From positions 1 to 64,000 of the forward strand of contig NZ_FNDE01000002.1 in NCBI RefSeq assembly GCF_900099925.1: a DNA stretch of 64,000 bases. Direction: 5' to 3'. The notes beneath the pieces are model-generated. The model saw nothing but the letters and a program-made list of their open reading frames with translations. It made no database searches and was not told the DNA's origin. Position 1 is the stretch's first letter. Each line of letters begins with the position of its first letter. Source of the stretch: Aneurinibacillus thermoaerophilus. GTDB taxonomy: Bacteria; Bacillota; Bacilli; Aneurinibacillales; Aneurinibacillaceae. Position numbers and translations under genes: made by a program. Below, in pieces: positions 11,968 through 55,477 of the stretch.

Positions 11968-11998
11968 AGTTCTCAGCATAATAATTAAATACTTCTCG

Positions 11999-12110
11999 CT
12001 TATCGAGAGAGGCGGAGGGACTGGCCCAATGAAGCCCGGCAGCGGATTTTCCTTGAGCGGAAAATGCTGTGCCAATTCCAGCAGGATTTTTCTATCCTGG
12101 CAGATAAGAG
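11999..12110 (+). promoter_or_regulatory. SAM-I (S-box) riboswitch of metQ
   Basis: Contains the conserved core: CTTATC-GAGAG, GGCGGAGGGACTGGCCC, GAAGCCCGGCAGC, GTGCCAATTCCAGCAGG and the closing GATAAGAG. The family binds S-adenosylmethionine and, in the bound state, frees a terminator. The terminator at 12128 lies directly downstream, then metQ. Confidence 0.95.
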
Positions 12111-14963: not shown

Positions 14964-14998
14964 ATAAAAAACCTCCCACTTAATTAAGTGAGGAGGTT
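14964..14998 (-). terminator. Terminator of the recombinase gene
   Basis: AACCTCC-CACTT pairs with AAGTG-A-GGAGGTT. On the minus strand it is followed by T residues. The stem overlaps the recombinase stop codon. Confidence 0.8.
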
Positions 14999-17490: not shown

Positions 17491-17530
17491 TAATTATAAA
17501 AAAATTTTCTACATTTTTTATTAAGAAAAA

Positions 17531-19306: not shown

Positions 19307-20833
<1,527 letters not shown>

Positions 20834-20838
20834 TCATT

Positions 20839-20867
20839 AAAGCGGGAAACTTGTCCCGCTTTTTTTA
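20839..20867 (+). terminator. Terminator after the helicase gene
   Basis: AAAGCGGGA pairs with TCCCGCTTT and is followed by a T run. Confidence 0.88.
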
Positions 20868-20887: not shown

Positions 20888-21160
20888 GAACCGACTTTTA
20901 TTCTCCATGAACCGAGTTTGAACCGACTTATGAACCGATTTTATCCTAGAGCCACAAGGGATGAGCCGACTGAACCGACTTTTTCTAAAAGTTTTTAAAC
21001 AGCAATACTAGTTTTTATAGAGTATACCAATGTCTTTTTATTGTTTAGGGAAAAAGTTTTACAGAAAATCGGTTCACTCGGTTCAAAGCCCGTCAAATCA
21101 AGGTTTTTTTGGTTCACAACTCGGTTCAGAGTCGGTTCATGTGTTTTTAAAACTCGGTTC
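20888..21160. repeat. Mirror-symmetric 12-iteron element, copy 1
   Basis: Left half has GAACCGA at 20888, 20909, 20920, 20932 and 20972, with GAGCCGA at 20963. Right half has TCGGTTC at 21069, 21078, 21121, 21132 and 21154, with TTGGTTC at 21109. Start-to-start steps are 21, 11, 12, 31, 9 on the left and 9, 31, 12, 11, 22 on the right, a mirror image. Many steps are near whole helical turns. It fills the gap between the helicase terminator and the next gene, where an origin would be plausible. A second copy is at 34314. Confidence 0.93.
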
Positions 21161-21185
21161 ATGTTAATTTTCTTTTTGTAAAAAA

Positions 21186-21212
21186 CAAGGGAATGTATGT
21201 TCTGTGTTTAAA
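21186..21212 (+). promoter_or_regulatory. Early bipartite module, copy 5
   Basis: CAAGGGA, 14 nt, TTTAAA preceded by TG, then ATATAGT, upstream of the gene at 21251. Confidence 0.55.
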
Positions 21213-21250
21213 AATATAGTTGTAAATACTTTACAAAAGAAAGGAATGTT

Positions 21251-21616
21251 GTGCTTATGTTAGAGAAGAAAAAACAAAAGAGATTAGACTTTGTTAAATA
21301 CCTAAATGACGATTATACTATCGTTATTGCCCGACATCCAAGATTCCATTGGATGTCGCATACGGAAAGTAATTATGTATATTTCTTGTATATTACTCGA
21401 ACTCAAAACCGGTTCATCGATGAAAAGACAGCAGCGGTAGCAAGATACAACATTCTGTGCTTTCAACAAATTTATTCTTCTTACAGTTGCTTGATGAAAT
21501 CGCTTTATGCCGTTATTTCCGAATATCTACTTGATGCGAATAAAATTTTAGAGGTTTTTTTGCTATGCGAAAAACTACGGGAACAATATGGAGAACAGCA
21601 AGTATTACGAGACTAA
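21251..21616 (+). CDS. Hypothetical phage protein, 121 residues
   Basis: Not recognised. Basic N-terminus (MLEKKKQKRLDF), aromatic-rich middle. GTG at 21251 is 5 bases after AAAGGA; ATG at 21257 is possible. It lies immediately after the iteron element, so it is a candidate to bind that DNA, but no DNA-binding motif is visible. Confidence 0.65.
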   Translation: MLMLEKKKQKRLDFVKYLNDDYTIVIARHPRFHWMSHTESNYVYFLYITRTQNRFIDEKTAAVARYNILCFQQIYSSYSCLMKSLYAVISEYLLDANKILEVFLLCEKLREQYGEQQVLRD

Positions 21617-21624
21617 TTATAAAA

Positions 21625-21655
21625 AACAGCAGGGATTTATTCCTTGCTGTTTTTA
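21625..21655 (+). terminator. Terminator
   Basis: AACAGCAGGGA pairs with TCCTTGCTGTT (one G-T pair), then T residues. Confidence 0.85.
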
Positions 21656-21692
21656 TTTTTTAAAAAAAACTTAATTTTCCATAAAGAAAAAA

Positions 21693-21719
21693 GCAGGAAT
21701 TGGTTAATTAATATATAAC
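21693..21719 (+). promoter_or_regulatory. Early bipartite module, copy 6
   Basis: GCAGGAA, 14 nt, TATAAC, then TGTAGT. It drives the leader that contains GACAGCAC element copy C. Confidence 0.6.
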
Positions 21720-21745
21720 TGTAGTAATAACTTCTCCATTTCCCT

Positions 21746-21793
21746 GACAGATACGGTTTATTACGAAAGACAGCACAGGCATTTATAAATGCC
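21746..21793 (+). other. GACAGA/GACAGCAC leader element, copy C
   Basis: GACAGA, 12 nt, CGAAAGACAGCAC, then the stem-loop GGCATT-tata-AATGCC. It lies 32 bp before the next start codon. Confidence 0.65.
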
Positions 21794-21824
21794 GTATCCA
21801 TATGTGGGGAAAGGAGTGATATAT

Positions 21825-22040
21825 ATGGGATACTTAAAAGAAAACAATGTAAATTATTTAATTCCTACTACCGAGAAGTGGCTTTCTTTTGAAAATTTAT
21901 TAAAAGAAGGTTATACAAAAGAACAACTTAATCGTGCATATTCTTTATTCTGTGCTCATAAAGAGACTTATAGAAAAATGTATTATACATTTGGTTTTGA
22001 GGCTTGCCTCCGTGACATATTGGAAAGGGGGCGAGTTTAA
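21825..22040 (+). CDS. Hypothetical phage protein, 71 residues
   Basis: Not recognised. ATG at 21825 is chosen because AAAGGAG is 8-9 bases upstream. The stop codon overlaps the ATG of the next gene (TTTAATG), so the two are coupled. Confidence 0.7.
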   Translation: MGYLKENNVNYLIPTTEKWLSFENLLKEGYTKEQLNRAYSLFCAHKETYRKMYYTFGFEACLRDILERGRV

Positions 22041-22426
22041 TGTCTTACATTTACAATAAATTAGACTTTAATGAACTCGCTGATTTAACCTTTTTGGATA
22101 AAAAAGGGGAATTACATATTAAATGTTTTTGTTATAACGAAGAAAACGAAAAAATAGGTGTTATTGTTCAACAGGTATTAAAAAATAATACTACAAAAGA
22201 ATATTATTTAACTAATTTACAATATGCCAATTTAAAAAATGATTTTTATATAGACGATCTTCCACAAGCAGCGACATTATTAGAGCAACATTATCCGTTT
22301 TATTATCGTTTTAATAGAATTAATGGATTGTTTATGTTTACTTTCTTTGATCATGATGGAAACTTCTTATTACACGTAGATTGTACAGAGGAAGAGAAGA
22401 ATTATTTAATTGGACATTTACTTTAA
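22040..22426 (+). CDS. Hypothetical phage protein, 128 residues
   Basis: Not recognised. Starts on the last base of the preceding stop codon, behind AAAGGGGG. Acidic, with beta-rich character (LHIKCFCYNEENEKIGVIVQ). Confidence 0.7.
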   Translation: MSYIYNKLDFNELADLTFLDKKGELHIKCFCYNEENEKIGVIVQQVLKNNTTKEYYLTNLQYANLKNDFYIDDLPQAATLLEQHYPFYYRFNRINGLFMFTFFDHDGNFLLHVDCTEEEKNYLIGHLL

Positions 22427-22451
22427 TAATTAATTACAGTATTTACTTCAC

Positions 22452-22497
22452 AGCAACCATACGGGCAGGAAAAAAATCCTGCTTAATGGTTGCTTTT
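22452..22497 (+). terminator. Terminator with nested stems
   Basis: AGCAACCAT pairs with ATGGTTGCT, with an inner GCAGGA/TCCTGC stem, then TTTT. Confidence 0.85.
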
Positions 22498-22508
22498 CAT
22501 TTACCAAA

Positions 22509-22551
22509 GACAGATTGCCTCCATACGAATGACAGCACTTGCGACTGCAAG
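22509..22551 (+). other. GACAGA/GACAGCAC leader element, copy D
   Basis: GACAGA, 11 nt, CGAATGACAGCAC, then stem CTTGC-gact-GCAAG. It is just upstream of the gene at 22596. Confidence 0.6.
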
Positions 22552-22595
22552 GCCATGTAGCCGTTTATCGGCTTTCGGAAAATGGAGGTGATTGT

Positions 22596-23465
22596 ATGGC
22601 AGATATGTTTGGTAATATTCAGTTTCGTTCAGACGAAAACGAAACCGAAAGATTATGGAGATTATTCGCAGAAGAACTTAAACAAGAGCAAGAAGGTTTT
22701 AGTTATATTAAAGGAACCTCTCAGGATTCCAATAATGGATATAAGCAACATAAGGATGCAAGGGATTCTAAATTTGATTTTGTTTTTCACTTTAAAGATT
22801 GGGATACTCAAGTTTACGAGAATATTCCTTCCTTTAAACTAGGGGAATTTACAGGAAAATTAAAAGAATGGAAATGGGATTATAATTTTATTCTTAATAT
22901 AGAAGTTAAACGGGTAGGTATGGGTAATCAATACAGTGTTATGCCTAAACGCTTTATTCAAGCCTTTAATATACCGTTTTATGATAAAGACAATTGGCTG
23001 ATCGTAGATTTTAGCAATGTATTAAAAATAAGTAATTTTGGTGGGATTATACATATAGAGGAGCGAAATGAGAAGACTGTCCATCATATTTTTCATCAGG
23101 AAGATATTCTTAAAGCCTGTATTGGCTATTATGTAATGGACTGGGAAGGAGATCCGACAAAGGTCGGTGGTGGGGGATATAAAGCAAAGACTTTACTTAA
23201 TAAAAAATACTCCGTTAAGTTCTCTAGTTTTGAAAGTGTTAAAGATTATATCCGTAGTATGGCCGATTATTACCTTACGGTACAAAAAGAACAGAATAGA
23301 CAGTTATTTTACAAGAATTTGCTTAATAAAGAAACACAAATACTTCCTTATTCAGAAAGTAAACTAAAAAATGCCAAAATTAAGCCTTTCATATTTGAGA
23401 ATGGAGAGGTAAAAGAAATAGGTAAAGAGTTCATCTCATGTAAAGAGGTGATCTCTAATGGCTAA
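22596..23465 (+). CDS. Hypothetical phage protein, 289 residues
   Basis: Not recognised. ATG at 22596 follows AATGGAGGTG. The middle (KLKEWKWDYNFILNIEVKR, QAFNIPFYDKDNWLIVDF) could be a nuclease-like or sugar-binding fold, but I cannot name a family. It overlaps the next gene by 8 bases, so the two are probably co-translated. Confidence 0.75.
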   Translation: MADMFGNIQFRSDENETERLWRLFAEELKQEQEGFSYIKGTSQDSNNGYKQHKDARDSKFDFVFHFKDWDTQVYENIPSFKLGEFTGKLKEWKWDYNFILNIEVKRVGMGNQYSVMPKRFIQAFNIPFYDKDNWLIVDFSNVLKISNFGGIIHIEERNEKTVHHIFHQEDILKACIGYYVMDWEGDPTKVGGGGYKAKTLLNKKYSVKFSSFESVKDYIRSMADYYLTVQKEQNRQLFYKNLLNKETQILPYSESKLKNAKIKPFIFENGEVKEIGKEFISCKEVISNG

Positions 23466-23883
23466 AAATAAATATAATGCTAGAAAAGTAGTCGTAGATG
23501 GGATTACTTTCGATTCTAAAATAGAAGCACAATATTATCTTTATTTAAAAGAACTGAAAGAGAAGGGCGAAGTTCTAGAATTTCAACTTCAGCCTCAATA
23601 TCTTCTACAAGGAGAATACATAAATTCAGAAGGAAAGAAGATAAGACCAATATATTATATCGCTGATTTTCTTGTTACATATAAAGACGGAACACAAGAG
23701 GTTATAGATATAAAGGGGAAACCTACACCGGAAGCAAAATTGAAAAAGAAACTGTTTGAGTATAAATATAAAATCCCGCTTCTCTGGATTGTCTATGTAG
23801 CCAAGCGAGGAGGTTGGCTTCTATACGAGGAAAATGAAAGACTGAAACGGGAAGAAAAGAAAGCCAAGAAGCAAGAAGACTGA
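23458..23883 (+). CDS. DUF1064 family protein, predicted PD-(D/E)XK nuclease
   Basis: A 141-residue protein matching DUF1064, seen in many Gram-positive phages and thought to resemble Holliday-junction resolvase-like nucleases. It has FDSKIEAQYYL (Glu), IRPIYYIADFLV (Asp) and VIDIKGKPTPEAKLK (Asp and Lys), the expected order of catalytic residues. It probably acts in phage DNA replication or recombination. Confidence 0.85.
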   Translation: MAKNKYNARKVVVDGITFDSKIEAQYYLYLKELKEKGEVLEFQLQPQYLLQGEYINSEGKKIRPIYYIADFLVTYKDGTQEVIDIKGKPTPEAKLKKKLFEYKYKIPLLWIVYVAKRGGWLLYEENERLKREEKKAKKQED

Positions 23884-23980
23884 TATTGATAATGTAGTAG
23901 TACTTATAGAGTTTAAAGCGAAAGAAGAGTTGGATAGTTAATATCCGCTCTTTTTTATTTATTTTTTTTGGTCCTGTTTA

Positions 23981-24016
23981 CTTTTGGTATGTGTGTTATA
24001 ATAGTTATACCAAAAG
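23981..24016 (+). promoter_or_regulatory. Operator-like inverted repeat around a -10 box
   Basis: CTTTTGGTAT (23981-23990) and ATACCAAAAG (24007-24016) are perfect inverted repeats 16 nt apart. TATAAT at 23997-24002 lies between them. A repressor bound here would block the promoter of the membrane protein at 24056. Confidence 0.75.
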
Positions 24017-24055
24017 AAAAAAACGGTAAATATGTAAATAAAAGGAGGTAATAAA

Positions 24056-24553
24056 ATGACATATGGAATTTTGACAGATAAAAGGCAAAAGAAAATTGTC
24101 ACAGTATACTTTATTGTATATACTTTATTAACCGCCTTGGCTTTTTACCCACTTTATGTTATGCATGTAAATGCAAACAGCAGTTTCTGGATTTATTTAT
24201 TCTCATTCATGCTTATAGCAACGGCTGGTGCAATCATCTTCAAAAGGATGTATTATGGAACGTATTATATATTAACAACCGGAACAGAAAAAGATGGTAT
24301 TTCAGTTGGTTGGATTATCGCAATTTTTCATGTGCAGTTATTTATTTCTTTGGTTTCCTGTTATGTTCTTTACAATGTGTTTCATTCTCTTAGTTTGGCT
24401 GTTGTGTATTCTATCTTTTTCTTTGTGGGCGGTTTTAATTGGAACCTGTGCCACGGGCAGATGTATGCAATCGATACAGAACTATGGGAAAAAGGATATT
24501 TACCTAAAATTGTAGTAAAAAAATATAAAAAAAAGCAGGGAATTGATAATTAA
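24056..24553 (+). CDS. Predicted membrane protein, 165 residues
   Basis: Four hydrophobic segments (about residues 15-37, 44-62, 81-103, 107-127) and a basic C-terminus. Not recognised as a family. It has its own promoter with a flanking inverted repeat, unlike the early genes around it. Independent control of a membrane protein suggests a lysogeny function such as exclusion of other phages, which is only a guess. AAAGGAGG precedes ATG. Confidence 0.75.
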   Translation: MTYGILTDKRQKKIVTVYFIVYTLLTALAFYPLYVMHVNANSSFWIYLFSFMLIATAGAIIFKRMYYGTYYILTTGTEKDGISVGWIIAIFHVQLFISLVSCYVLYNVFHSLSLAVVYSIFFFVGGFNWNLCHGQMYAIDTELWEKGYLPKIVVKKYKKKQGIDN

Positions 24554-24561
24554 TGTTTAAT
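24535..24561 (+). promoter_or_regulatory. Early bipartite module, copy 7
   Basis: GCAGGGA, 14 nt, TTTAAT preceded by TG. It lies across the end of the membrane protein gene and has no gene between it and the terminator at 24639. Confidence 0.55.
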
Positions 24562-24564
24562 TAA

Positions 24565-24684
24565 ATAAGTGCAACGATCAACGATTAACAACGCTTTAAT
24601 ATTTTTAAACACCTTTTAAAATATATATGAACGGGTTTAGAGTAGTCCATCACAGTTAATGTGCTGTTTTGGACTACTCTTTTT
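24565..24684 (+). ncRNA. Candidate small RNA ending in a strong terminator
   Basis: The stretch from module copy 7 to the terminator has no usable open frame. The terminator is AGAGTAGTCCA (24639-24649) with TGGACTACTCT (24670-24680) and an inner ACAG/CTGT pair, then TTTT. A new module (copy 8) begins 40 bp later. This gives a promoter-terminator unit of about 120 nt. The start is assumed from the module position. Confidence 0.35.
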
Positions 24685-24725
24685 ATTTATAATTAAAAAT
24701 ATTGTTAATTTTTGTAAACAAAAAA

Positions 24726-24752
24726 CAAGGAAAAGCCTTGTTGCTGTTTAAA
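24726..24752 (+). promoter_or_regulatory. Early bipartite module, copy 8
   Basis: CAAGGAA, 14 nt, TTTAAA preceded by TG, then GACAGGT, upstream of AAAAGGAGG and the gene at 24791. Confidence 0.55.
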
Positions 24753-24790
24753 TGACAGGTAGATAGGTAAGGAAAAGGAGGCGATGTCGC

Positions 24791-25303
24791 ATGAAAATAT
24801 ATGATAAACTTCTGTCTAATTTAAAAGAAGAGTTTAATAAAAATAATAACTTTTTTTCTAATTCGTTTGATGATGGCTTTGTTAAAAAACTAACAGATGG
24901 TGTCCCAGCGAAGAAATTAACCATGAAGGAATTGATGGAAAATTATAAAAAGAAACTTCCATCTCAACCCGCTAGAATGAGTGAAGAATTAAATGATTAT
25001 TATTCATTTTTAGATAGTTCCTTAAAGAAATTTATTGTTGAACATAATCTTCAGGAGTACAAATTTTTAGATATGGTTATTAAAAGTAGTTTTCATGAAT
25101 TGAGCGATTTAGAAGTTAAACTATTAAAACATGATATTGTGGAAAGAAGAAATCTAGATTTTCAGAAAGTCGATGTTTTTACAATAGAAATTGCTGTAAT
25201 AATGCTTACTACACATTATCATTATTTTATGTTTTTGTGTTCTAACAAAGAAGATAAATTACCAATTAACAATATTAAAGAATATCTGAATGGGAGGTTA
25301 TAG
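24791..25303 (+). CDS. Hypothetical phage protein, 170 residues
   Basis: Not recognised. Mostly helical, starting KIYDKLLSNLKEEFNK. It heads a likely operon with the split sigma factor genes (20 bp before the next start). A regulator or assembly partner of that sigma factor is possible on position alone. Confidence 0.7.
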   Translation: MKIYDKLLSNLKEEFNKNNNFFSNSFDDGFVKKLTDGVPAKKLTMKELMENYKKKLPSQPARMSEELNDYYSFLDSSLKKFIVEHNLQEYKFLDMVIKSSFHELSDLEVKLLKHDIVERRNLDFQKVDVFTIEIAVIMLTTHYHYFMFLCSNKEDKLPINNIKEYLNGRL

Positions 25304-25323
25304 CAGAAAAGGAGGTAGATATC

Positions 25324-25587
25324 ATGAAATTAACACGTGAGGAGGCTTGGGATTATGTTTTAGAATATCAAAATTTAATTTGGGCTAAAATATGGAATTA
25401 CAATATTTACAATAAAGAAGATGTTTTTCAGGAAGCATTGATTGAACTACATAAAAGGATACAAAAACACGGAATAGAGAATATTTCTTCTCAGGTTCGT
25501 TCTGCTGTGGTTGACAGTATAAAAAAACAAAAGAATAACTCAATGGACTTAAATAGACTTAAAGAAAGTGGGGTGTTAGCATGTTAA
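25324..25587 (+). CDS. Sigma-70 region 2-like protein (first half of a split sigma factor)
   Basis: The 87-residue protein has the order seen in sigma region 2: an N-terminal helix (EEAWDYVLEYQNLIWAKIW), then NKEDVFQEALIELHKRIQKH, matching the DLxQExxLxLxKAxxxF helix that binds RNA polymerase, and a final basic helix (VVDSIKKQK). Region 4 is absent and is encoded by the next, overlapping gene. AAAGGAGG precedes ATG. With the next gene it would make a two-subunit sigma factor, as in SigO-RsoA of B. subtilis. Confidence 0.7.
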   Translation: MKLTREEAWDYVLEYQNLIWAKIWNYNIYNKEDVFQEALIELHKRIQKHGIENISSQVRSAVVDSIKKQKNNSMDLNRLKESGVLAC

Positions 25588-25886
25588 ACACCCTTACCCC
25601 TGAAGAAAAAGAAAGAGAGCAAAGGATAATAATTAAAAGATTAATCGAGCATTATAACTTGTTTTATCAACTTATTAGTTTTCCAGAGGATATAATTCCT
25701 AAAGTCGATCTCGATATGGCCATCAATAGTTTAGATGACTTGGAACGAAAAATCATTATTCTTACTTGCCTAGAGGGATATACATACAGACAAGTTGAAA
25801 ATATATTGGGTATTCCTAGAACAACTATTGGGGACTTGAAGAAACAAGCAATAGATAAAATAGTAAAAAAATGTATGGAAATATAA
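25581..25886 (+). CDS. Sigma-70 region 4-like protein (second half of a split sigma factor)
   Basis: The 101-residue protein ends with a clear sigma region 4: SLDDLERKIIILTCLEGYTYRQVENILGI and PRTTIGDLKKQAIDKI, a helix-turn-helix for the -35 element. Its ATG lies inside the last codons of the region-2 gene (7-base overlap), so the two should be made in equal amounts. Placed just before the terminase genes, it sits where phages such as PBSX keep their late-gene activator. Confidence 0.8.
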   Translation: MLNTLTPEEKEREQRIIIKRLIEHYNLFYQLISFPEDIIPKVDLDMAINSLDDLERKIIILTCLEGYTYRQVENILGIPRTTIGDLKKQAIDKIVKKCMEI

Positions 25887-25898
25887 CTTTTTTCGGAC

Positions 25899-25973
25899 AA
25901 AAGGAGGTGTGAAATCGTATATATAGTGAAAGCCGTACTAAAAAAGTTTTTTTCATGTATATCACCTCCTTTT
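25899..25973. repeat. Inverted repeat made of two perfect ribosome-binding sites
   Basis: AAAAGGAGGTG (25899-25909) and CACCTCCTTTT (25963-25973) are exact complements. Either transcript would fold its Shine-Dalgarno sequence into a stem. On the minus strand AGGAGGTGATATAC is followed by ATG at 25956, opening a 43-codon frame (25825-25956) antisense to the region-4 gene. On the plus strand no good start follows. Confidence 0.6.
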
Positions 25974-25994
25974 CCTTTCATATGGTACGGATTA

Positions 25995-26032
25995 AGCAGA
26001 GAGGCTGTTCGTGTTGGCTTCTCTGCTTTTTT
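25995..26032 (+). terminator. Terminator at the end of the early region
   Basis: AGCAGAGA pairs with TCTCTGCT, with extra GC pairs inside, then TTTTTT. Confidence 0.85.
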
Positions 26033-26144
26033 AATTATGTGAGGGCATAGTGCTATAAGTGGGTGCAAGTCCCGCTCCTTACCATTGTTTAAAAGTCCAT
26101 CAATAAGGAAACGGTAATAATAAAAACTAAGGAGAAGAGGATAT

Positions 26145-26354
26145 ATGAGGATATTTTGGTTATTCTGTTTTTACTTATCGCTAATCTCTGGATTAGCAGG
26201 GTGTCTTGCTGTTATGTTCGATGTATTGCTGTTTAAGGAAAACATCTTTACTCTATATGAGATTTCACAATTCATTATTCTTATTCTCTTGGCAATCTTT
26301 ATTAGAATGTATATCTTGCCTAAATATAAAAATAAGTTCGTAAAGAGGCTATAA
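26145..26354 (+). CDS. Predicted small membrane protein, 69 residues
   Basis: Two hydrophobic segments (about residues 3-25 and 38-57) and a basic tail. Not recognised. AAGGAGAAGAGG precedes ATG and a hairpin follows the stop codon. Confidence 0.65.
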   Translation: MRIFWLFCFYLSLISGLAGCLAVMFDVLLFKENIFTLYEISQFIILILLAIFIRMYILPKYKNKFVKRL

Positions 26355-26367
26355 TGCCTCTATTTTT
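26344..26367 (+). terminator. Terminator
   Basis: AGAGGC pairs with GCCTCT, then ATTTTTG. The stem overlaps the end of the gene. Confidence 0.7.
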
Positions 26368-26490
26368 GTTTTTAATTAGTTCGGCATATTTACCCCTTTG
26401 AACTTACTTAAAAACGAAAATAGAAGCATTATGGAGGCCATATTTCATTAAAAATACATGATAAATCCATGAAAGAAAGGAGGGTTAGAA

Positions 26491-27039
26491 ATGGCAAGAA
26501 AAAAAGATAGTTATAAAAATCATCTAAATAAGACTGTGGAGCAGATACTGGCTTTGCCACGAAGACAAAGACGTTTTCCCGCTATGGCTTTATATTTACA
26601 AAATTTTGATATGTCTGTTCAAGAGGTTGCTGAACTTTTAGATATACCAGAAGGAACGGCTAAAGATTGGGCAGCAAAGGACGAATGGGCGAAGACCAGA
26701 GAAGAAATAAAAGAAAAAATAAAAGATAAAATAAAAGTTACAGCAGAGACTGAACATACAAAGATAATTATGCAAATCATTTCTAACCTTCTTCAGAAGT
26801 TCCTAGAGGCATCATTGAATCCAAACGTTAAGGTCATTGATATACGTGATTTAAAATTCTTATCTGAGGCATTAGAAAAGAATTATAAAATACTGGGATT
26901 GCTTAATGTTATAGAAGAACCTACACAGAAACATGAAGTGGAATATAAAGGAATTAATAATCCTGTTCAAAATCTTTCAGATGAAGAACTTCGTCTTCTC
27001 CTGCTTGGTCTTCAGGAGAAGGAAGGTGATGGAGAATGA
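26491..27039 (+). CDS. Terminase small subunit
   Basis: Binds phage DNA at the packaging site and brings in the large subunit. The 182-residue protein has an N-terminal helix-turn-helix (FDMSVQEVAELLDIPEGTAKDWAAKDEW), a charged coiled segment and a C-terminal acidic tail. It overlaps the large subunit gene by 4 bases (ATGA). AAAGGAGGG precedes ATG. Confidence 0.88.
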   Translation: MARKKDSYKNHLNKTVEQILALPRRQRRFPAMALYLQNFDMSVQEVAELLDIPEGTAKDWAAKDEWAKTREEIKEKIKDKIKVTAETEHTKIIMQIISNLLQKFLEASLNPNVKVIDIRDLKFLSEALEKNYKILGLLNVIEEPTQKHEVEYKGINNPVQNLSDEELRLLLLGLQEKEGDGE

Positions 27040-28478
27040 CAGTATTAAGTCATAAGGAAATTCAGGTATTAAGAGAATTGGCTCAAACAGAATTGGCAAG
27101 AAGAAACTTTCATGATTTTTGTGTTTATATGTATCCAGAGTTCTTTACTCCGAATAAGCCTCATGCTAAAAAAATTGCCGAAACACTACAACAATCATAT
27201 GAAGACTACAAGAGAGGCTTACAGCCTAAAATTATTATTGCTCTTCCTCCACGTGCAGGGAAGAGTTTTATTATTTCTTTATTTTGCGCTTGGCTTATTG
27301 GTAAAGAACCTAAAGAGTCTATTATGAGGAATACATACTCCGCTTCTCTTGCAGAGGATTTTTCATACTACATTAGAGAGTTAATTCAGACAGAGAAGTA
27401 TTTAAAAATATTTCCACATATAAAACTAAAACAAGATAAATCAAAAATCGATGGTTGGTCTATCGAAGGTGCGCCACGAACAACATATTTCTGCGCGGGT
27501 GTCGGAGGAAGTATTACTGGCAAGGGTGCAACTATCTTAGCCGTCCTTGATGATCCGATTAAGAATATGGAAGATGCTATGTCCCCTGTCATCAGAAAGA
27601 AAACTTGGGAATGGTATACTTCCACGCACAAGACCCGCTTGGAAGGCAACTGTATAGAAATTGTTATTGCTACCCGCTGGCACACGGAAGATCCAACGGG
27701 AAAAATAATGGAATTAGATAAAAATGAAAATGAATGGAAAAAAATCATTATTCCTGCATTAGACGAGAACGGTAAAAGTTACTGTGAGGAGATTAAATCA
27801 ACAGAGGACTTTTTAAAATTAAAAAAATCTATGGATAGTTTTATTTGGGATGCATTGTATATGCAGAAACCTGCAAACGTTGACGGGGTTCTCTTTAAGA
27901 AAAACGAACTTAATTACTTTACAATGCAAGAATTAAATAAATTACTTAGAAATAAAAAACCAGATGTAATTGTTGGTTACACAGACGTAGCCGATACGGG
28001 GGCAGATAGTCTTTGCTCTCTTATCGGCTATAAGTTTGAGGATAAAGTGTATATAGCAGATGTGATATTTACACAAGACCCGGTTGAAGTAACAGAACCG
28101 CTGGTCGCACAACAGATAATTACACATAAACCTAACACTCACACGATCGAAAGTAACAATGGTGGTCGTAGTTTTGCTCTTAATGTGCAGAGATTAGTCA
28201 GCGGTAAGACATTTACTTTTATCAATACGAAACAGAATACACAAAACAAAGAAACAAGAATTTTGATGAAATCGGGGCAGATTAAACAGCATTTCGTATT
28301 TAGAGAAGATTATGAGATTGGTAGTGATTACGATAAATTTATGAACGAACTTACTAGTTACGTGAAACTTGGTAAGAACAAGCACGACGATGCAGTGGAT
28401 GCCGCTACAGGTTTAGCGGAGACGATTTTTGAAGAAAACAACATTCAATTAGGCGGTAAAGTATTCAGCCGTAGATAG
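27036..28478 (+). CDS. Terminase large subunit
   Basis: The packaging motor. The 480-residue protein has a Walker A ALPPRAGKSF, Walker B TILAVLDDPI, a coupling segment IATRWH and a nuclease domain with GYTDVADTGAD and NKHDDAVDAATG acidic residues. It starts at the ATGA overlap with the small subunit. Confidence 0.95.
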   Translation: MTVLSHKEIQVLRELAQTELARRNFHDFCVYMYPEFFTPNKPHAKKIAETLQQSYEDYKRGLQPKIIIALPPRAGKSFIISLFCAWLIGKEPKESIMRNTYSASLAEDFSYYIRELIQTEKYLKIFPHIKLKQDKSKIDGWSIEGAPRTTYFCAGVGGSITGKGATILAVLDDPIKNMEDAMSPVIRKKTWEWYTSTHKTRLEGNCIEIVIATRWHTEDPTGKIMELDKNENEWKKIIIPALDENGKSYCEEIKSTEDFLKLKKSMDSFIWDALYMQKPANVDGVLFKKNELNYFTMQELNKLLRNKKPDVIVGYTDVADTGADSLCSLIGYKFEDKVYIADVIFTQDPVEVTEPLVAQQIITHKPNTHTIESNNGGRSFALNVQRLVSGKTFTFINTKQNTQNKETRILMKSGQIKQHFVFREDYEIGSDYDKFMNELTSYVKLGKNKHDDAVDAATGLAETIFEENNIQLGGKVFSRR

Positions 28479-28490
28479 GAGGTGATAGAT

Positions 28491-29963
28491 TTGAAACAAA
28501 TTGGAATTTTGACGAGTAGAGGGAAGTTTGTAGATAACGAGATTATGAATAAATACCTATTAAAAGAAAGAAAAATAGACGAAAAAAGTAAGCAGATAAA
28601 AGACCCCTTTGCAGGGAAGTATACAGATGGTCTTGTTGTCCCTCCATACAATCTTTTGGAACTGGCAAATACATTGTCGTTTAATCCTTACCATTTCAGG
28701 GCTGTTGTCACCGTAGCAGGAGATGTCGCAGGAACAGGATATGTTCTCAAACCAACAGTTGATGAACCAAACGAAGAAAATAAAAAAGAGTTAATAGCAT
28801 TTTTTGATAAGATAAAGCCTAGTGTAAATGAGATTGTTCGCAGAATGTTGGTTGATTATAAAACAACAGGGAACGGATATTTAGAAATAATTCGTGAGGG
28901 ATATGCACTTAACGGTAAGCCCGTTGGCCTTGACCATATTCCTTCCCACACTGTAAGGGAACATGTTAGCGGTGAAAAGATATGTCAGATACGTGGAGAC
29001 CAAAAAATATGGTTTAAATTATTTAATGCTCCTTTTGATTTATCTGTACATAACACGGAACCAAAAACGAACGAGGAACGTGCAACAGAATATTTATCCT
29101 TAAAAGAATACCATCCTTCTGACGATTTTTATGGAATTCCACAATATATTTCCGTGATTCGAACAATGTATGGGGATATTGCAAGAAACGAATATAACCT
29201 TTCGTTCTTTAAAAATTATGGAATGCCTGCTGCTATCGTTTCAGTTGCTGGAAATTTCAATCCTGCACAACCGATTGACTTAGAAGGTCATACCATAGTG
29301 GATTATCTAGAAGATCAATTTAGACAATTCCAAGAAAACCCTCACAGCACTATGTTATTAACAATACCAAGCGCAGGTGGTGGAGAGGTTAAAGTAGAAG
29401 TAACACCTATTGGCACTGAACAAAAAGATTCTTCTTTCCAAATGTATCGTAAAGACAATCGTGATGAAATATTAGCCGCTCACGGTGTTCCTCCTTATCG
29501 GCTCGGTATAGCCGAAACAGGAAGTTTAGGGGGTAGCACAGCAGAAGAAAGTACAGAAATATACAAGAGAAGTATTATAGAACCTTTACAACAACTTGTA
29601 GAAGCAATGATTAACCGAATTATCAGAGAAGGTTTTGGAATAACCGATTGGGAATTTCGCTTTAACGATATAGATTTAGAAGATATGGCAAAGGATTTAG
29701 AGTTTGCAGATGCACTTTTCCAAAAAGGTGCTATCACACCTAACGAGTTAATTCGTAACTTTGGTAAGAAATTTGGGATTGAACCTGACCCTGACAATCC
29801 ATATTTAAATAGCCACTACATAAATGGAACTCCTATTGATTTAGAATACATAATCGAAAAAATGGAAAAAGAGAAGGACCAAGAAATGGATTTAGAACAA
29901 GCAGAAAGTTTGTTGAATAAAATCAAATCTGTCATGTTCAAGTCCGTGATAAAGAATGAGTAA
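28491..29963 (+). CDS. Portal protein, PBSX XkdE type
   Basis: Forms the ring at the capsid vertex. About 490 residues with NPYHFRAVVTVAGDVAGTGYVL near the N-terminus and PPYRLGIAETGSLGG in the C-terminal half, as in XkdE-like portals. TTG at 28491 is chosen because it lies 8 bases after AGGAGG; a GTG at 28482 is too close to that site. It overlaps the next gene by 8 bases. Confidence 0.88.
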   Translation: MKQIGILTSRGKFVDNEIMNKYLLKERKIDEKSKQIKDPFAGKYTDGLVVPPYNLLELANTLSFNPYHFRAVVTVAGDVAGTGYVLKPTVDEPNEENKKELIAFFDKIKPSVNEIVRRMLVDYKTTGNGYLEIIREGYALNGKPVGLDHIPSHTVREHVSGEKICQIRGDQKIWFKLFNAPFDLSVHNTEPKTNEERATEYLSLKEYHPSDDFYGIPQYISVIRTMYGDIARNEYNLSFFKNYGMPAAIVSVAGNFNPAQPIDLEGHTIVDYLEDQFRQFQENPHSTMLLTIPSAGGGEVKVEVTPIGTEQKDSSFQMYRKDNRDEILAAHGVPPYRLGIAETGSLGGSTAEESTEIYKRSIIEPLQQLVEAMINRIIREGFGITDWEFRFNDIDLEDMAKDLEFADALFQKGAITPNELIRNFGKKFGIEPDPDNPYLNSHYINGTPIDLEYIIEKMEKEKDQEMDLEQAESLLNKIKSVMFKSVIKNE

Positions 29964-30813
29964 AGAATTAGAACTTTATATGAAGGCTCGTAGAATACAA
30001 CAGCATATGGCAGTAGAAAAGTCAACAGATAAAAAATCAATTGCTATCATGGGGCAAATGGTCGATAAACTTGCGGAAGTAATAAAGAAAGTAGGTAAGG
30101 AAAGTATTGAACTTTTAAAAAGCGATAGAGGAACTTACTATTCTCCTGATATGTTTTCAGTTGCTTTAGATTTAGTAATGGCTCATTACGAAGAAGAGTT
30201 TGCTGAAATCATGACAGAGTTCAATGTAGAAGCCGCTCAACTAGGACAGAATAGAATAATTCATCATTTGCAGGTTATGGGCTTCTCTTTAACTCATGCA
30301 CCTATTACTGACCGTGTATTAGAGTTAATTAAAGAACAAACCTTTGAAGCAAGTAAAAACACATTAGCAAATATTAAAGGCGACGTAATGGATAATATTG
30401 CAGATAGTTATCGTCAAGGATTAGGTATAGATGATGCGGCTAAACGATTAGAAGAAGTTTTTGAAAATATGAAAGAACATCAACTAAAACGAATAGCCCG
30501 TACAGAAATTAATGGAAATTTACAAAAGGGCGCACACGAAACAATGAATGAACTTAATATCGAATACACACAATGGATTTCAGCAGATGACAGCAGAACT
30601 AGAAGAAGTCATAAGGAACTAAATGGACAAATAACAAAAAGAAATGGTAAATATAGTAATGGTTTAGAGCATCCCGGAGACCGTAGAGGTCCGACAGAAG
30701 AATGGATTAATTGCCGTTGCAGAGAAGTACCGTATTTTATTCCAAAGGGATATGCCCCACCACCGGGTAGAGACTGGTTTTATGAAAAAGATTTAATAAA
30801 GATAAGTCATTAG
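29956..30813 (+). CDS. Phage head morphogenesis protein (SPP1 gp7 / Mu gpF type)
   Basis: A 285-residue minor head protein. The C-terminal domain has ARTEINGNLQKGAHETM, ADDSRTRRSHKELNGQI and WINCRCREVPYFIP, the usual pattern of this family. Its gene follows the portal as in SPP1 and PBSX-like phages. Confidence 0.88.
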   Translation: MSKELELYMKARRIQQHMAVEKSTDKKSIAIMGQMVDKLAEVIKKVGKESIELLKSDRGTYYSPDMFSVALDLVMAHYEEEFAEIMTEFNVEAAQLGQNRIIHHLQVMGFSLTHAPITDRVLELIKEQTFEASKNTLANIKGDVMDNIADSYRQGLGIDDAAKRLEEVFENMKEHQLKRIARTEINGNLQKGAHETMNELNIEYTQWISADDSRTRRSHKELNGQITKRNGKYSNGLEHPGDRRGPTEEWINCRCREVPYFIPKGYAPPPGRDWFYEKDLIKISH

Positions 30814-30824
30814 GAGGTGGTAAT

Positions 30825-30986
30825 GTGTTTGGATTTTTTAAAAGTAAAGAACAAAAGAGGTTCGAAAATTTTTTAAAATATGAGGAATTCTACAAGAGTC
30901 AAGAAAAAAATAGATTTAAAGTCGTTTTTACACATTATAGGTATGAAGACTATCTTGAAGATAGAAAACGATACAGAGGTTATTGA
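30825..30986 (+). CDS. Hypothetical phage protein, 53 residues
   Basis: GTG at 30825 follows TAGGAGGTGG. The product is very basic and aromatic (starts MFGFFKSKEQKRFENFLKYE). It is followed by a small GAGGCTACA/TGTAGTCTC hairpin. Not recognised. Confidence 0.55.
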   Translation: MFGFFKSKEQKRFENFLKYEEFYKSQEKNRFKVVFTHYRYEDYLEDRKRYRGY

Positions 30987-31033
30987 AGAGGCTACATTAT
31001 GTAGTCTCTTTTCTTTTGAAAGGAGGTGAGTAG

Positions 31034-32023
31034 ATGGAAAAGAGAATTGTATATGCTCCAGTGCTAGTGCCTGATAAACCTGATCATGATGGGGATATAG
31101 TTACAGCCGAACAGATTCAAGAATTTGCTCACCGTTTTATGGCTTCATATCGAAATATCGATTTACAACATACAATGAACAACATTGGTGTTCCAGTAGA
31201 ATCCTACATTGCTAAACAACCTTATAAAGTGGAAACACCTGAAGGTGAAAAAGTATTGCCTGTTGGAACTTGGATAATGGCTGTTAAGGTTATTCACGAA
31301 GACACTTGGAACAGAATTAAAAATGGAGAACTGACAGGTTTTAGTATTATGGCAGTCAAGAAAACCGTGCTTAATGAAATAGTTGCTAAATCAAGAGAAT
31401 TTAGCCTTTCTGAAAGCGACTTGGTTGCCGTGAAAAGTAAAACTACCTTGAAGGATCTAGGTGATGATCTAGAGGTTATATTTGTTTCCATCGTAGATGA
31501 ACCCGCTGTTCCAGATGCGAAGTTTTTCACTATTAAATCCAAGAAGCAGAGTTTAATAGATAAATTAAAAGAAAAAGTAAATAAAGCACTCTTGGATGAC
31601 AGTGGCACTGCTCGAAAGGAGGTGACAGGTATGACAGAGGAAGAATTAAAGGCTCTTTTGGAGACTATTCAGGCTTTGCAACAAAAAGTAGCAGCACTAG
31701 AAGAACAAATAAATGGAGAACCAGAAGATTCTCAAGAAGTAAATCAGGAAGAAGTTCAAGATAGTGCTGAAAAGGGAGAAGAAACTGAAACTTCTTCTCA
31801 GGAACAAGCAGATGAGGTTTCAAGCGAAGAAGATTTAAAGGCGATAATTGCAGATTTACAAAAACAGATTGAGGAACTTAAAGGTAAAGGTTCTAATACT
31901 GTTGCTAAAAGCCGTAAATTGAGAGGTTCCGATTTCCAAACTACTAATGAAGAAAAGAAAGAAGTATATAAGTCCAAGTACGAACGTGATGCGTTCGGTA
32001 ATCGAATTAATTTAGGACTATAA
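31034..32023 (+). CDS. XkdF-like prohead protease-scaffold fusion
   Basis: The N-terminal half (residues 1-160) looks like the XkdF/S78-type phage protease: MEKRIVYAPVLVPDKPDHDGDIV, LQHTMNN (His) and LTGFSIM (Ser). The C-terminal 130 residues are a charged coiled coil ending in a basic capsid-binding tail, typical of a scaffold. A strong internal ribosome site and in-frame ATG at 31631 allow separate synthesis of the scaffold. AAAGGAGGTGAG precedes the first ATG. Confidence 0.82.
   Translation: MEKRIVYAPVLVPDKPDHDGDIVTAEQIQEFAHRFMASYRNIDLQHTMNNIGVPVESYIAKQPYKVETPEGEKVLPVGTWIMAVKVIHEDTWNRIKNGELTGFSIMAVKKTVLNEIVAKSREFSLSESDLVAVKSKTTLKDLGDDLEVIFVSIVDEPAVPDAKFFTIKSKKQSLIDKLKEKVNKALLDDSGTARKEVTGMTEEELKALLETIQALQQKVAALEEQINGEPEDSQEVNQEEVQDSAEKGEETETSSQEQADEVSSEEDLKAIIADLQKQIEELKGKGSNTVAKSRKLRGSDFQTTNEEKKEVYKSKYERDAFGNRINLGL
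31631..32023 (+). CDS. Nested scaffold protein from an internal start
   Basis: Inside the XkdF-like gene, AAAGGAGGTGACAGGT stands directly before the in-frame ATG at 31631. The product would be the 130-residue scaffold domain (MTEEELKALLETIQALQQKV onward). This mirrors lambda C/Nu3, where the scaffold starts inside the protease gene. Confidence 0.6.
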   Translation: MTEEELKALLETIQALQQKVAALEEQINGEPEDSQEVNQEEVQDSAEKGEETETSSQEQADEVSSEEDLKAIIADLQKQIEELKGKGSNTVAKSRKLRGSDFQTTNEEKKEVYKSKYERDAFGNRINLGL

Positions 32024-32043
32024 AAGAAAGGGGAGATGAAAAT

Positions 32044-33006
32044 ATGTATAACATTGATATTAAAGGAGGAATTGAAAAAGCACTAAAAAGTATTACGGTG
32101 CAAGATTTAAATGATAGTGTTTTAAGTCCAGAGCAGTTCCAAAAGTTTGTGGATGGATTGCAAGACGAAAGTAAAATTTTAAGTATGGCTCGTCTACAAG
32201 AAATGTATAGTCAAGTAGCAAAAATTGACCGTATGCAATTTGATGGCCGTGTCTTAGAACAAGGTAAAAATGCAGACGGCACTCAAAATATTCCGGGTGC
32301 TGCTAAACCAACATTCAAAACTAATGAATTAGTTGCTCACGAATTAGTAGCAGTAACTGGTCTTTATGATGATGCCGCTCGTCGCAATATAATGAAGAAA
32401 AATTTAGAGAACTACCTAATTACTCTTTTCAGTAAGCAAGTTGCCTTCGATTTAGCAGAATACTGTTTGTGGGCTAATACTGCTTCATCTGATCCATTCT
32501 TAAAGAAAACAAACGGTTGGATTGAACTTGCTGCTAACAAATTATATGGACAAGGAACTGAAGCAGACTTCAATCCTACGGATATTTTCAGTATTTTTAA
32601 TTCAATGATTCAGGCTATGCCTAAACGTGCTATTCGTAATCGTTCAGAAGTTGTTTTTCATGTAGGGTTTGAAATTGAAGATGCTCTTCGTGATGCATAT
32701 GCGAATCGTGGTACTGATTTAGGAGACCTCGCACTTACTACAAACGGAACACTTACATATAAAGGCTTCCCGGTTGTGTATGATCCTGCAATGGATGCAT
32801 ATCCTGATGATACTGGTCGTGCTGTTCTTTTCACAAATCCTAAGAACTTAGTTTATGGTGTATTCCATCGTGTAACGATTGAAGCAGACCGAGTTCCGAA
32901 GGAACGTAAAACAGATTTTGTATTAACTTTTGAAGGAGATGCAAATTACGATAACGAGGAAGCAGCAGTAGTTGCTTACTTAGACAAAGCAAAGCCTAGT
33001 GCTTAA
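32044..33006 (+). CDS. Major capsid protein, PBSX XkdG type
   Basis: A 320-residue shell protein following the protease-scaffold gene. Features include ARLQEMYSQVAKIDRMQFDGRVLEQG near the start and KGFPVVYDPAMDAYPDDTGRAVLFTNPKNLVYGVF in the last third, as in XkdG-like capsid proteins of the HK97 fold. Preceded by AAAGGGGAG. Confidence 0.85.
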   Translation: MYNIDIKGGIEKALKSITVQDLNDSVLSPEQFQKFVDGLQDESKILSMARLQEMYSQVAKIDRMQFDGRVLEQGKNADGTQNIPGAAKPTFKTNELVAHELVAVTGLYDDAARRNIMKKNLENYLITLFSKQVAFDLAEYCLWANTASSDPFLKKTNGWIELAANKLYGQGTEADFNPTDIFSIFNSMIQAMPKRAIRNRSEVVFHVGFEIEDALRDAYANRGTDLGDLALTTNGTLTYKGFPVVYDPAMDAYPDDTGRAVLFTNPKNLVYGVFHRVTIEADRVPKERKTDFVLTFEGDANYDNEEAAVVAYLDKAKPSA

Positions 33007-33045
33007 AGTTTTGTCTTCTCTTCTTTTTAGAAAGGAGGAATTACA

Positions 33046-33378
33046 GTGATTAGTGTTGTGAAACTATATGAGGTTAAAAACACTAGCACTGATACAGTAG
33101 CAAAAGGGGGATATATCTTTCCCCCTAGAACTACTGTAAAAGTCAGAGTTAGTGAATATAAAATAAAAGAATTTTCGGCTCATAAGGATTTAAAGGTAAA
33201 AGAAGTTTCTTCAAGCGATAAACAACATGGGGAAAGAAAAAATGAAACAAGTAAATACAGAATTAATGGTAACGGTCGATTACAATGTCCTTACTGCGAT
33301 AAAGATTACAAGACAGAAGAAGGCTTAGATAAACATATTGAAGAAAAACATCCAGAGAAGAAGCAAGGTGATGCCTAA
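33046..33378 (+). CDS. YqbF-like phage protein with a C-terminal C2H2 zinc finger
   Basis: The N-terminal 60 residues (VVKLYEVKNTSTDTVAKGG, VKVRVSEYKIKEF) resemble small YqbF-like proteins that follow capsid genes in skin/PBSX relatives. The C-terminus is CPYCDKDYKTEEGLDKHIEEKH, with two cysteines and two histidines spaced as in a classical C2H2 finger. GTG start behind AAAGGAGG. Role unknown; head-tail joining or DNA contact would fit the position. Confidence 0.75.
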   Translation: MISVVKLYEVKNTSTDTVAKGGYIFPPRTTVKVRVSEYKIKEFSAHKDLKVKEVSSSDKQHGERKNETSKYRINGNGRLQCPYCDKDYKTEEGLDKHIEEKHPEKKQGDA

Positions 33379-33809
33379 TGGGTAAATACTATTCAACCAT
33401 TGAAGATGTAATCGTCTATACAGGCATAGAACCTGTTGATTTAAAACTTGATACAGAAGAAGAATTACATTCAACAATTGAAACTTGGCTTATACAGGTT
33501 AAATCCCTAATGGACAGAATAACAGAAAGAGATTTTCACAAAGAACTAGAAGATGGGAAAATTAACGAAATAGATGCTGGTCTTCACAATATTGCTCTCC
33601 GTATTACAGCCAATATGGTTCTCCAAGCACAGATAAGAAAACAAACAAGCACAATAGAAAAAGACAGTAACCTTCCACAATTACTTCAATCCTCCATTAT
33701 TACCCAAGATATCCGAGAAGAATTAGAACAATATAAAAACAAAAAGATAGAAAGTAACGATTTTAGTTTTTTTATTCGCAGAGTGCGAAACGGAAGTGAA
33801 TTATCATGA
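33378..33809 (+). CDS. Head-tail connector, YqbG-like
   Basis: A 143-residue helical protein starting YYSTIEDVIVYTGIEP, which matches head-completion proteins of the gp6/YqbG group. It shares its first base with the previous stop codon and overlaps the next gene by 4 bases. Confidence 0.75.
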   Translation: MGKYYSTIEDVIVYTGIEPVDLKLDTEEELHSTIETWLIQVKSLMDRITERDFHKELEDGKINEIDAGLHNIALRITANMVLQAQIRKQTSTIEKDSNLPQLLQSSIITQDIREELEQYKNKKIESNDFSFFIRRVRNGSELS

Positions 33810-34315
33810 ATACACAAGTAAATGATCAGGTATTAGAAAATTTACCTGCAAATGTTAGACAGGCTATTGAACAAGCAGTAGAAATGACGAAATTGGAAAT
33901 GTGGAGGAATTTACGAATAAAAACTCCTGTTGATCATGGACGTGCTGCGAACAGTTGGCAAATGCAAGTTGTAAACCCATTAGAACATATGATTTATAAC
34001 ACTGCTTCATACATAAAGTATCTAATCGAAGGAACGGGAGAGTATGGACCAACTGGAAGACCGATTATGCCAAAAACAGCAGGTGCATTAAAATTCCTTT
34101 GGAAAGGAAAAACTTTCATCTTCAAAGGAGATTTAACGGAAAAATGGCAAAAGGCTAGTTTTATAAAATGGGCAAAAGAAGAAGGAATGGAACCTGTTCT
34201 TTCTTGGCCAAAAGGTATTAAGCCACATGATTTTATTGATAAAAGCAAACAAGAAACAGAGGCACGTATTCCTGAATTTGTCCAAACTGCAATAGACCGG
34301 GTTATGGGGTCATGA
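33806..34315 (+). CDS. HK97 gp10-like head-tail joining protein
   Basis: A 169-residue protein with KTPVDHGRAANSWQ and YIKYLIEGTGEYGP, the usual pattern of the HK97 gp10 family. Its stop codon overlaps the first iteron of the second mirror element (TCATGAACCGA). Confidence 0.85.
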   Translation: MNTQVNDQVLENLPANVRQAIEQAVEMTKLEMWRNLRIKTPVDHGRAANSWQMQVVNPLEHMIYNTASYIKYLIEGTGEYGPTGRPIMPKTAGALKFLWKGKTFIFKGDLTEKWQKASFIKWAKEEGMEPVLSWPKGIKPHDFIDKSKQETEARIPEFVQTAIDRVMGS

Positions 34316-34585
34316 ACCGATTTTTATTTTTATGAACCGACTTTGAACCGACTTATGAACCAATTTTGTCCTACAGCCCCAACGAATGAACCAAATGAAC
34401 CGACTTTTTCTAAAAGTTTTCAAACAGCAATACTAGTTTTAAAATAGCATACCAATGTCTTTATATTGTTTAGGGAAAAAGTTTTACAGAAACTCGGTTC
34501 ACTCGGCTCAGAGCCTATCATATCAATGTTTTTTCGGTTCATGACTTGGTTCAAAGTCGGTTCATGTTTTTTTCTAAATCGGTTC
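34314..34585. repeat. Mirror-symmetric 12-iteron element, copy 2
   Basis: GAACCGA at 34314, 34334, 34345 and 34397, GAACCAA at 34357 and 34388. TCGGTTC at 34494, 34534, 34557 and 34579, TCGGCTC at 34503 and TTGGTTC at 34546. Steps are 20, 11, 12, 31, 9, then a 97-nt centre step, then 9, 31, 12, 11, 22. This is the same plan as copy 1, with the same centre step of 97. The centres are also closely alike (TTTTCTAAAAGTTTT, AACAGCAATACTAGTTTT, TTGTTTAGGGAAAAAG). It splits the head-tail gene block. Confidence 0.93.
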
Positions 34586-34603: not shown

Positions 34604-35050
34604 ATGATTGGGTTAGGTAAGGCTGTTGTACAAATACAAGAAAAAGTTGAGGAGATTTTAAAGAATGAAAATAGAGAAGGTGGAAGGCTAGAAGGAGTAA
34701 AGGACATCATTAGTTGGGTTTATCATAAAGGAAAACCTTCTCACCCCGCCATTTGGATAATTCCACAAGACCCCACTCCAACAACTGTAGCATTAGCGAA
34801 TAAACGATACTGGGAACAAATATTTAGTATTGCAAGTTTAGTAAAAAGTAATGATCCTGTCGAAGGAGCAAAACAGGCTACATTATTGGCAGGAGAAGCG
34901 AGGGATATATTAATACAGTCTAAGCGACTTGGACTTTCCTATGTACAAGATGTGACTGATTTATCGTTTAGCCCCTCCAACAATTCCAACAGCAATGGGA
35001 TTGAATATGGAGCAGTGGCTTTTATTAAAGTAAAATTTTTTACTATTTAA
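34604..35050 (+). CDS. Tail completion / YqbJ-like protein
   Basis: A 148-residue protein in the position of the tail terminator. ATG at 34604 follows AAAGGAGGGG, itself only 19 bp after the last iteron. Upstream in-frame codons run through the iteron element and are not credible coding sequence. Weak family resemblance only. Confidence 0.65.
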   Translation: MIGLGKAVVQIQEKVEEILKNENREGGRLEGVKDIISWVYHKGKPSHPAIWIIPQDPTPTTVALANKRYWEQIFSIASLVKSNDPVEGAKQATLLAGEARDILIQSKRLGLSYVQDVTDLSFSPSNNSNSNGIEYGAVAFIKVKFFTI

Positions 35051-55124: not shown

Positions 55125-55151
55125 AGAATAAATAATTTATATATTGATTTT

Positions 55152-55264
55152 CTTATCAAGAGAGGCGGAGGGACTGGCCCAGTGAAGCCCGGCAACCCCA
55201 ATGACCCTATTCGAGGGAAGGAAGGTGCCAATTCCAGCAGGATACACATATCCTGAGAGATAAG
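55152..55264 (+). promoter_or_regulatory. SAM-I riboswitch, first of a tandem pair
   Basis: CTTATCAAGAG, GGCGGAGGGACTGGCCC, GAAGCCCGGCAACC, GGTGCCAATTCCAGCAGG and GAGATAAG give the full S-box core. It is followed by its own terminator at 55284. Confidence 0.95.
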
Positions 55265-55283
55265 GAAAAGGATGAGCAATCAG

Positions 55284-55368: not shown

Positions 55369-55477
55369 CTCTTATCAAGAGAGGTGGAGGGACTGGCCCG
55401 ATGAAACCCGGCAACCATCAAACGCAATGTTTGAACGGTGCTAATGCCTGTGGAACGACTGTTCTAAACGATGAGAG
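55369..55477 (+). promoter_or_regulatory. SAM-I riboswitch, second of a tandem pair
   Basis: CTCTTATC pairs with GATGAGAG as P1. GGTGGAGGGACTGGCCC and GAAACCCGGCAACC are conserved. GGTGCTAATGCC replaces the usual GGTGCCAATTCC, a known variation. It lies 50 nt after the first terminator. Confidence 0.92.

Follow-up and report, generated by a model that had tools for sequence, protein, structure and literature searches.

What purpose two mirror-symmetric arrays of short repeats, lying 13.4 kb apart in a single prophage, might serve is the question raised by the 64,000-nucleotide stretch of the Aneurinibacillus thermoaerophilus genome analyzed here, which is referred to below as the window. A first-pass annotation had described two elements of about 272 bp, each with six heptamers in one orientation and six in the other at mirrored steps, and both their positions and their anatomy were confirmed (Table 1). 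As argued below, copy 1 is in all likelihood the replication origin of the prophage, of the PICI/SaPI D5/SF3 type, predicted to be bound by Rep and bidirectional, and copy 2 arose more recently as a duplicate of the entire array.

The prophage and its surroundings

The prophage is set apart from its host by its GC content, which is about 0.30-0.37 as compared with 0.42-0.48 in the flanking DNA. It opens with a serine integrase gene at 14980, which is followed by genes for replication and then by those for terminase, portal, capsid, neck and tail. In the host DNA on either side there are three SAM riboswitches (11997-12110, 55150-55266 and 55369-55477), two of which stand in tandem about 100 nt apart. 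The gene directly past the prophage (49159-50112) is 77% identical to the gene past the prophage of the Cytobacillus genome G011, a likeness that could reflect an integration neighborhood common to different hosts. A further repeat, the 10-mer AAAAAGCAGG, occurs in prophage intergenic regions at 17526, 17918, 18344, 21688, 24530 and 44524, within a family of 56-87 nt repeats; it was not found in the scanned part of the G011 prophage, and it may be a shared promoter or leader, or an operator.

Anatomy of the two arrays

In copy 1 the heptamers follow one another at steps of 21/11/12/31/9, a center step of 97 and 9/31/12/11/22, and in copy 2 at steps of 20/11/12/31/9, 97 and 9/31/12/11/22. Each heptamer in either copy has at most one mismatch to GAACCGA or TCGGTTC, and in copy 2 four of the twelve are imperfect; the observation that spacing is kept despite mutated heptamers holds in both arrays. 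The steps correspond to approximately one, two or three helical turns, as had been proposed for most of them, with the exception of the 9-nt inner step, which is not a whole turn. Aligned without gaps over 266 nt, the two copies are 86% identical, and their centers differ at 7 of 90 positions.

The heptamers are far more frequent than shuffling would predict, in keeping with the first-pass annotation: exact GAACCGA is present 25 times in the window as compared with 5.7 +/- 2.3 times in shuffled sequences, and no shuffle reached 25. When the whole window was scanned for 274-nt stretches with 12 sites (at most one mismatch each), only copies 1 and 2 were recovered, and the 3.66-Mb host genome likewise contains the element only twice, at these same two places.

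Table 1. Features of the two arrays and their neighboring genes, in window coordinates
Feature	Coordinates	Strand	Description
rep	19307..20833	+	508-aa D5_N / SF3-type helicase initiator; Pfam DUF5906, D5_N, Pox_D5, RFX_DNA_binding; PHROG primase/helicase families
Intrinsic terminator	20839..20862	+	In the gap that separates rep from copy 1
Copy 1, mirror iteron array	20888..21160	.	273 bp; predicted primary replication origin
Copy 1 left arm	20888..20978	+	Six GAACCGA-type iterons: 20888, 20909, 20920, 20932, 20963 (GAGCCGA), 20972
Copy 1 center	20979..21068	.	90 nt, 77% A+T; predicted melting region
Copy 1 right arm	21069..21160	-	Six TCGGTTC-type iterons: 21069, 21078, 21109 (TTGGTTC), 21121, 21132, 21154
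Neck gene	33806..34315	+	Head-closure / neck (tail-completion) protein; PHROG connector family
Copy 2, again a complete mirror iteron array	34314..34585	.	272 bp; lineage-specific duplicate, late genes on either side
Copy 2 left arm	34314..34403	+	Iterons 34314, 34334, 34345, 34357 (GAACCAA), 34388 (GAACCAA), 34397
Copy 2 center	34404..34493	.	90 nt, 74% A+T
Copy 2 right arm	34494..34585	-	Iterons 34494, 34503 (TCGGCTC), 34534, 34546 (TTGGTTC), 34557, 34579
Next late gene	34604..35050	+	Start about 18-19 nt past the end of copy 2

The two copies occupy very different positions. Copy 1 begins 55 nt past the stop codon of rep, just 3' of the helicase gene that it had been said to follow, and the intervening terminator is predicted to insulate it from rep transcription; a similar GC stem and T run is likewise present in G011 and in L017, a second relative described below. 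Copy 2, conversely, is not 3' of rep and has no upstream terminator. It does interrupt the head-tail block, as originally noted, being situated between the neck gene, whose TGA stop (34313-34315) runs into the start of the array, and the next late gene.

The initiator encoded next to copy 1

The C-terminus of Rep comprises a Pox_D5/RFX winged helix (about residues 426-505). The sole sequence match to Rep in the PDB (E 3e-21) is 7ola/7om0, which is labelled 'DNA primase' and is a staphylococcal Rep. No primase domain was found in the 508-aa protein by the Pfam scan, and D5-type helicases are often mis-annotated as primases (PMC10061031). Modeled alone, the C-terminal domain reached a pLDDT of 82.8, and its best Foldseek matches were RFX5 and the RFX-DBD:X-box complex; the full-length model, with a pLDDT of 38.7, was left out of the fold searches.

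Rep is predicted to be the reader of the heptamers through this C-terminal winged helix. On the evidence of its sequence and of the domain model, this D5/SF3 Rep with its DNA-binding domain matches the kind of initiator that is cognate to a PICI/SaPI-type origin.

As a separate observation, the fold of the winged helix (20582-20824) is closest to that of eukaryotic RFX, and the iterons GTTACC and GTGACC of some relatives resemble the half-site of the RFX X-box, with weak statistics. A half-site of this kind, GTNRCV, was counted in 7 of 24 cases among the iterons (p = 0.008), and no such relationship is claimed.

Iteron arrays in relatives

A Rep at 63-70% identity is encoded by four genomes, and in all four an iteron array lies directly 3' of rep. 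In G011, whose Rep is 70% identical to that of the prophage and whose C-terminal domain is 71% identical, the array occupies the same place as copy 1 and has steps of 21/11/12/31/9 and 9/31/12/11, albeit with a center step of 109 instead of 97. In this comparison, the heptamers differ at only 2 of 84 positions, as opposed to 46 of 188 elsewhere (p = 1.5e-6). The proteins from L017-L019 are more distant (63% identity overall, 45-47% in the C-terminal domain), and there the iteron is GAACCAA/GAGCCAA, the left-arm steps are 11/11/11/31/9, and the right arm is degenerate. The contrast between L017-L019 and G011 suggests, for what is a small sample, that the iteron and the C-terminal domain of Rep change together. 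Spacing is retained beyond this prophage, in G011 and, for the left arm, in L017-L019, an outcome that favors the first-pass observation.

The element had no blastn match among phages and plasmids, and a DNA probe of it had none in six congeners. In the gapped-pattern search suggested at first pass, the exact pattern recovered from viral contigs only the same prophage and a single unrelated match, L005.

The survey was extended to 65 Rep homologues, comprising the close relatives above together with more remote ones drawn from phages and from samples of the class and of the phylum. With arrays called by an exact 6-mer test, which degenerate arrays such as that of L017 fail, 24 of the 65 homologues had an iteron array no more than 400 nt 3' of their rep gene, as compared with 1 of 61 upstream flanks (Fisher 2e-7) and 0 of 66 coding sequences (4e-9). 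Across these 24 arrays almost every one has an iteron sequence of its own, whereas the plan of spacing comes back repeatedly. In eight, the two innermost iterons of each arm are spaced 8-10 nt apart and the center step is 77-112 nt, and near-perfect mirror symmetry is seen in several, such as L105 (9,12,20,46,9 / 104 / 9,46,20,12,9), L093 (11,21,46,9 / 93 / 9,46,21,11) and L065 (44,9 / 80 / 9,44); three (L089, L092 and L100) are essentially one-directional. A non-iteron motif, ATCAAGG/CCTTGAT, was also found in 15 of 65 rep 3' flanks and in 9 of 127 controls (p = 0.002), and might be recognized by a further replication factor. ATCAAGG is present near 21100 in a right-arm spacer of copy 1 (21085-21108), and copy 2 has ATCAATG.

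Copy 1 as a probable bidirectional origin

The origins of PICIs lie immediately 3' of rep and consist of two iteron sets and an AT-rich likely melting site, and PICI rep-ori replication has been shown on plasmids (PMC6092414). Similarly, the alpha protein of P4 binds the repeats of its origin through a winged helix and then unwinds the DNA (PMC4234260). In the prophage, where all genes are on the + strand, third-position GC skew switches from -0.24 to the left of copy 1 to +0.23 to the right (p = 1e-8), and it changes in the same direction in G011, Javan385 and Javan633, although gene content could be a partial cause. Together, the PICI plan, the P4 alpha precedent and the skew switch are the grounds on which copy 1 is taken to be the primary bidirectional origin, and it is very likely the place where the prophage starts DNA copying. 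Of the readings proposed at first pass, that of a phased array of protein which could serve as an origin is the one supported.

Initiation would probably proceed as follows. Rep produced from the adjacent upstream gene would bind the heptamers via its C-terminal RFX-like winged helix, so that each arm would carry one Rep assembly, the two being mirror images of each other. Both assemblies would jointly melt the AT-rich center, and the loading of two helicase rings would then give rise to bidirectional forks. Copy 2, which keeps its spacing, is probably still bound by the same Rep.

Comparison with known origins

The SaPIbov1 ori is reportedly a named example of a PICI/SaPI replication origin, attributed to Ubeda et al. 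2012. Contrary to the view that no named element has this plan, this plan is the published organization of PICI/SaPI origins (PMC6092414): in both copies, short iterons stand in two sets of opposite orientation to either side of an AT-rich center, and copy 1, unlike copy 2, is immediately 3' of the Rep helicase gene. The differences lie in the host of the array, which is a complete tailed-phage prophage and not a satellite, and in the presence of a second full array among the late genes. Since the prophage encodes its own terminase, portal, capsid, protease and tail proteins, whereas a PICI is a helper-dependent satellite without virion genes, it is not classed as a PICI. The yardstick for satellites in this comparison was a streptococcal satellite together with the literature, the staphylococcal SaPI sequences being left out.

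P4 has more than one cis-acting replication region, and copy 2 could be a counterpart of the second. Its ori/crr and alpha system features an SF3 helicase with a C-terminal winged helix that reads iterons (PMC4234260), as is predicted here, but P4 possesses a primase-helicase fusion, whereas the Pfam scan of the present Rep gave no primase domain, and copy 2 is a copy of the whole origin and is dispensable in G011. The pRN1 origin is also located 3' of the gene for a helicase / winged-helix replication protein, yet it is a stem-loop without iterons (PMC4234260). Iterons in both orientations do occur 3' of the primase/helicase gene in Streptococcus phages Javan385 and Javan633, Streptococcus satellite Javan564, Staphylococcus phage PI-Sepi-HH2 and Paenibacillus phage LincolnB, although the iterons used there are different ones (GTTACC, GTTACG, TGTGACC, AAGACA and GTAACA).

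Origin and fate of copy 2

A relative that lacks copy 2 but retains its flanking genes, such as the first-pass annotation had thought worth seeking, is provided by the nearest syntenic relative, G011, in whose prophage about 50 nt or less, with no array, separates the neck gene from the gene that follows it. Copy 2 is therefore not essential to this type of replicon. Copies 1 and 2 have in common 23 differences from G011 in the center and 13 in the spacers, so that, judged by these shared differences, the duplication took place after the G011 lineage had split off; alternatively, copy 2 may have been imported from the origin of a close relative. No second two-orientation array was found in 11 other prophage neighborhoods (2.7-55 kb each, several ending at contig ends, each scanned with its own iteron) or in the genomes of Javan385, LincolnB and PI-Sepi-HH2, each scanned with its own motif. 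In all of these a single two-orientation array adjoins rep, and PI-Sepi-HH2 has an additional minor one-direction triplet.

When the changes are polarized with G011, the copy 2 branch accounts for 24 of them and the copy 1 branch for 9 (p = 0.014). On the copy 2 branch, 10 of 174 positions in heptamers and center are substituted, as opposed to 14 of 98 in the spacers (p = 0.025), a pattern that is compatible with relaxed constraint and residual function alike. It is possible, if doubtful, that copy 2 is a functionless duplicate in decay, as its excess of changes, its four imperfect heptamers, its absence from G011 and the lack of a skew change at its own position would suggest; yet its spacing has been kept to within 1 nt across 272 bp, and the pattern of constraint is still visible. 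Its complete array, its preserved spacing and the rarity of substitutions in its heptamers and center are also what would be expected of a control site that does not itself initiate, but that limits or licenses firing by Rep-mediated looping with copy 1 or by titration of Rep; as a further option, Rep on copy 2 might obstruct late transcription. Parallels for such a site are P4 crr and handcuffing in iteron plasmids, and titles cited in PMC6092414 report two replicons in P4 that are served by its initiator. The control-site reading can be advanced only tentatively, as G011 manages without copy 2 and a second array is present in no other prophage or phage checked. A second active origin, firing with or after copy 1, would likewise be somewhat unlikely: every part is present, including an AT-rich center close to that of copy 1, but GC skew is flat at copy 2 (+0.06 before, +0.02 after, p = 0.49), and read-through transcription would cross the array.

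The outermost iterons mark the limits of the homology between the copies at either end, and these inverted ends would fit a small non-autonomous, MITE-like mobile unit with the iterons as transposase sites. Such a unit is nevertheless very improbable, for no target-site duplication is visible at the copies, there are only two copies in the genome and none in six congeners, and the place of copy 1 next to rep is kept in distant relatives. Hardly any probability attaches to a partition, packaging or RNA-hairpin element. While the mirror arms can fold as a single strand (z -6.5), this follows trivially from inverted iterons, heptamer changes in one arm are by inspection not accompanied by complementary changes in the mirror partner, and neither element has an Rfam match. 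Moreover, no partition gene was recognized among the prophage proteins scanned, and the terminase genes lie over 5 kb away from copy 2. The mobile-unit, partition, packaging and RNA-hairpin readings were rejected on these points, and the earlier guesses of a partition, packaging, silencing or mobile element gained no support.

Implications

With copy 1 read as the origin and copy 2 as its younger duplicate, the organization of the origin is one that is already known, and what is exceptional is the complete second copy among virion genes. An array 3' of rep is shared by a complete prophage and by numerous Rep homologues from throughout the phylum, some of them in phages with virion genes, which allows the origin of such prophages to be predicted, and these natural initiator/iteron pairs are a resource for the study of Rep specificity. 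It may be, though this is put forward tentatively, that the duplicated whole origin in a tailed-phage late operon has become a working control point, at which Rep-bound copy 2 would pair with copy 1 to limit firing or would couple late expression to replication; more generally, and just as tentatively, D5-type Reps may keep one mirror-symmetric spacing plan while the letters of the iterons change freely. The duplicated array is a natural experiment on the effect of a second origin in a phage genome.
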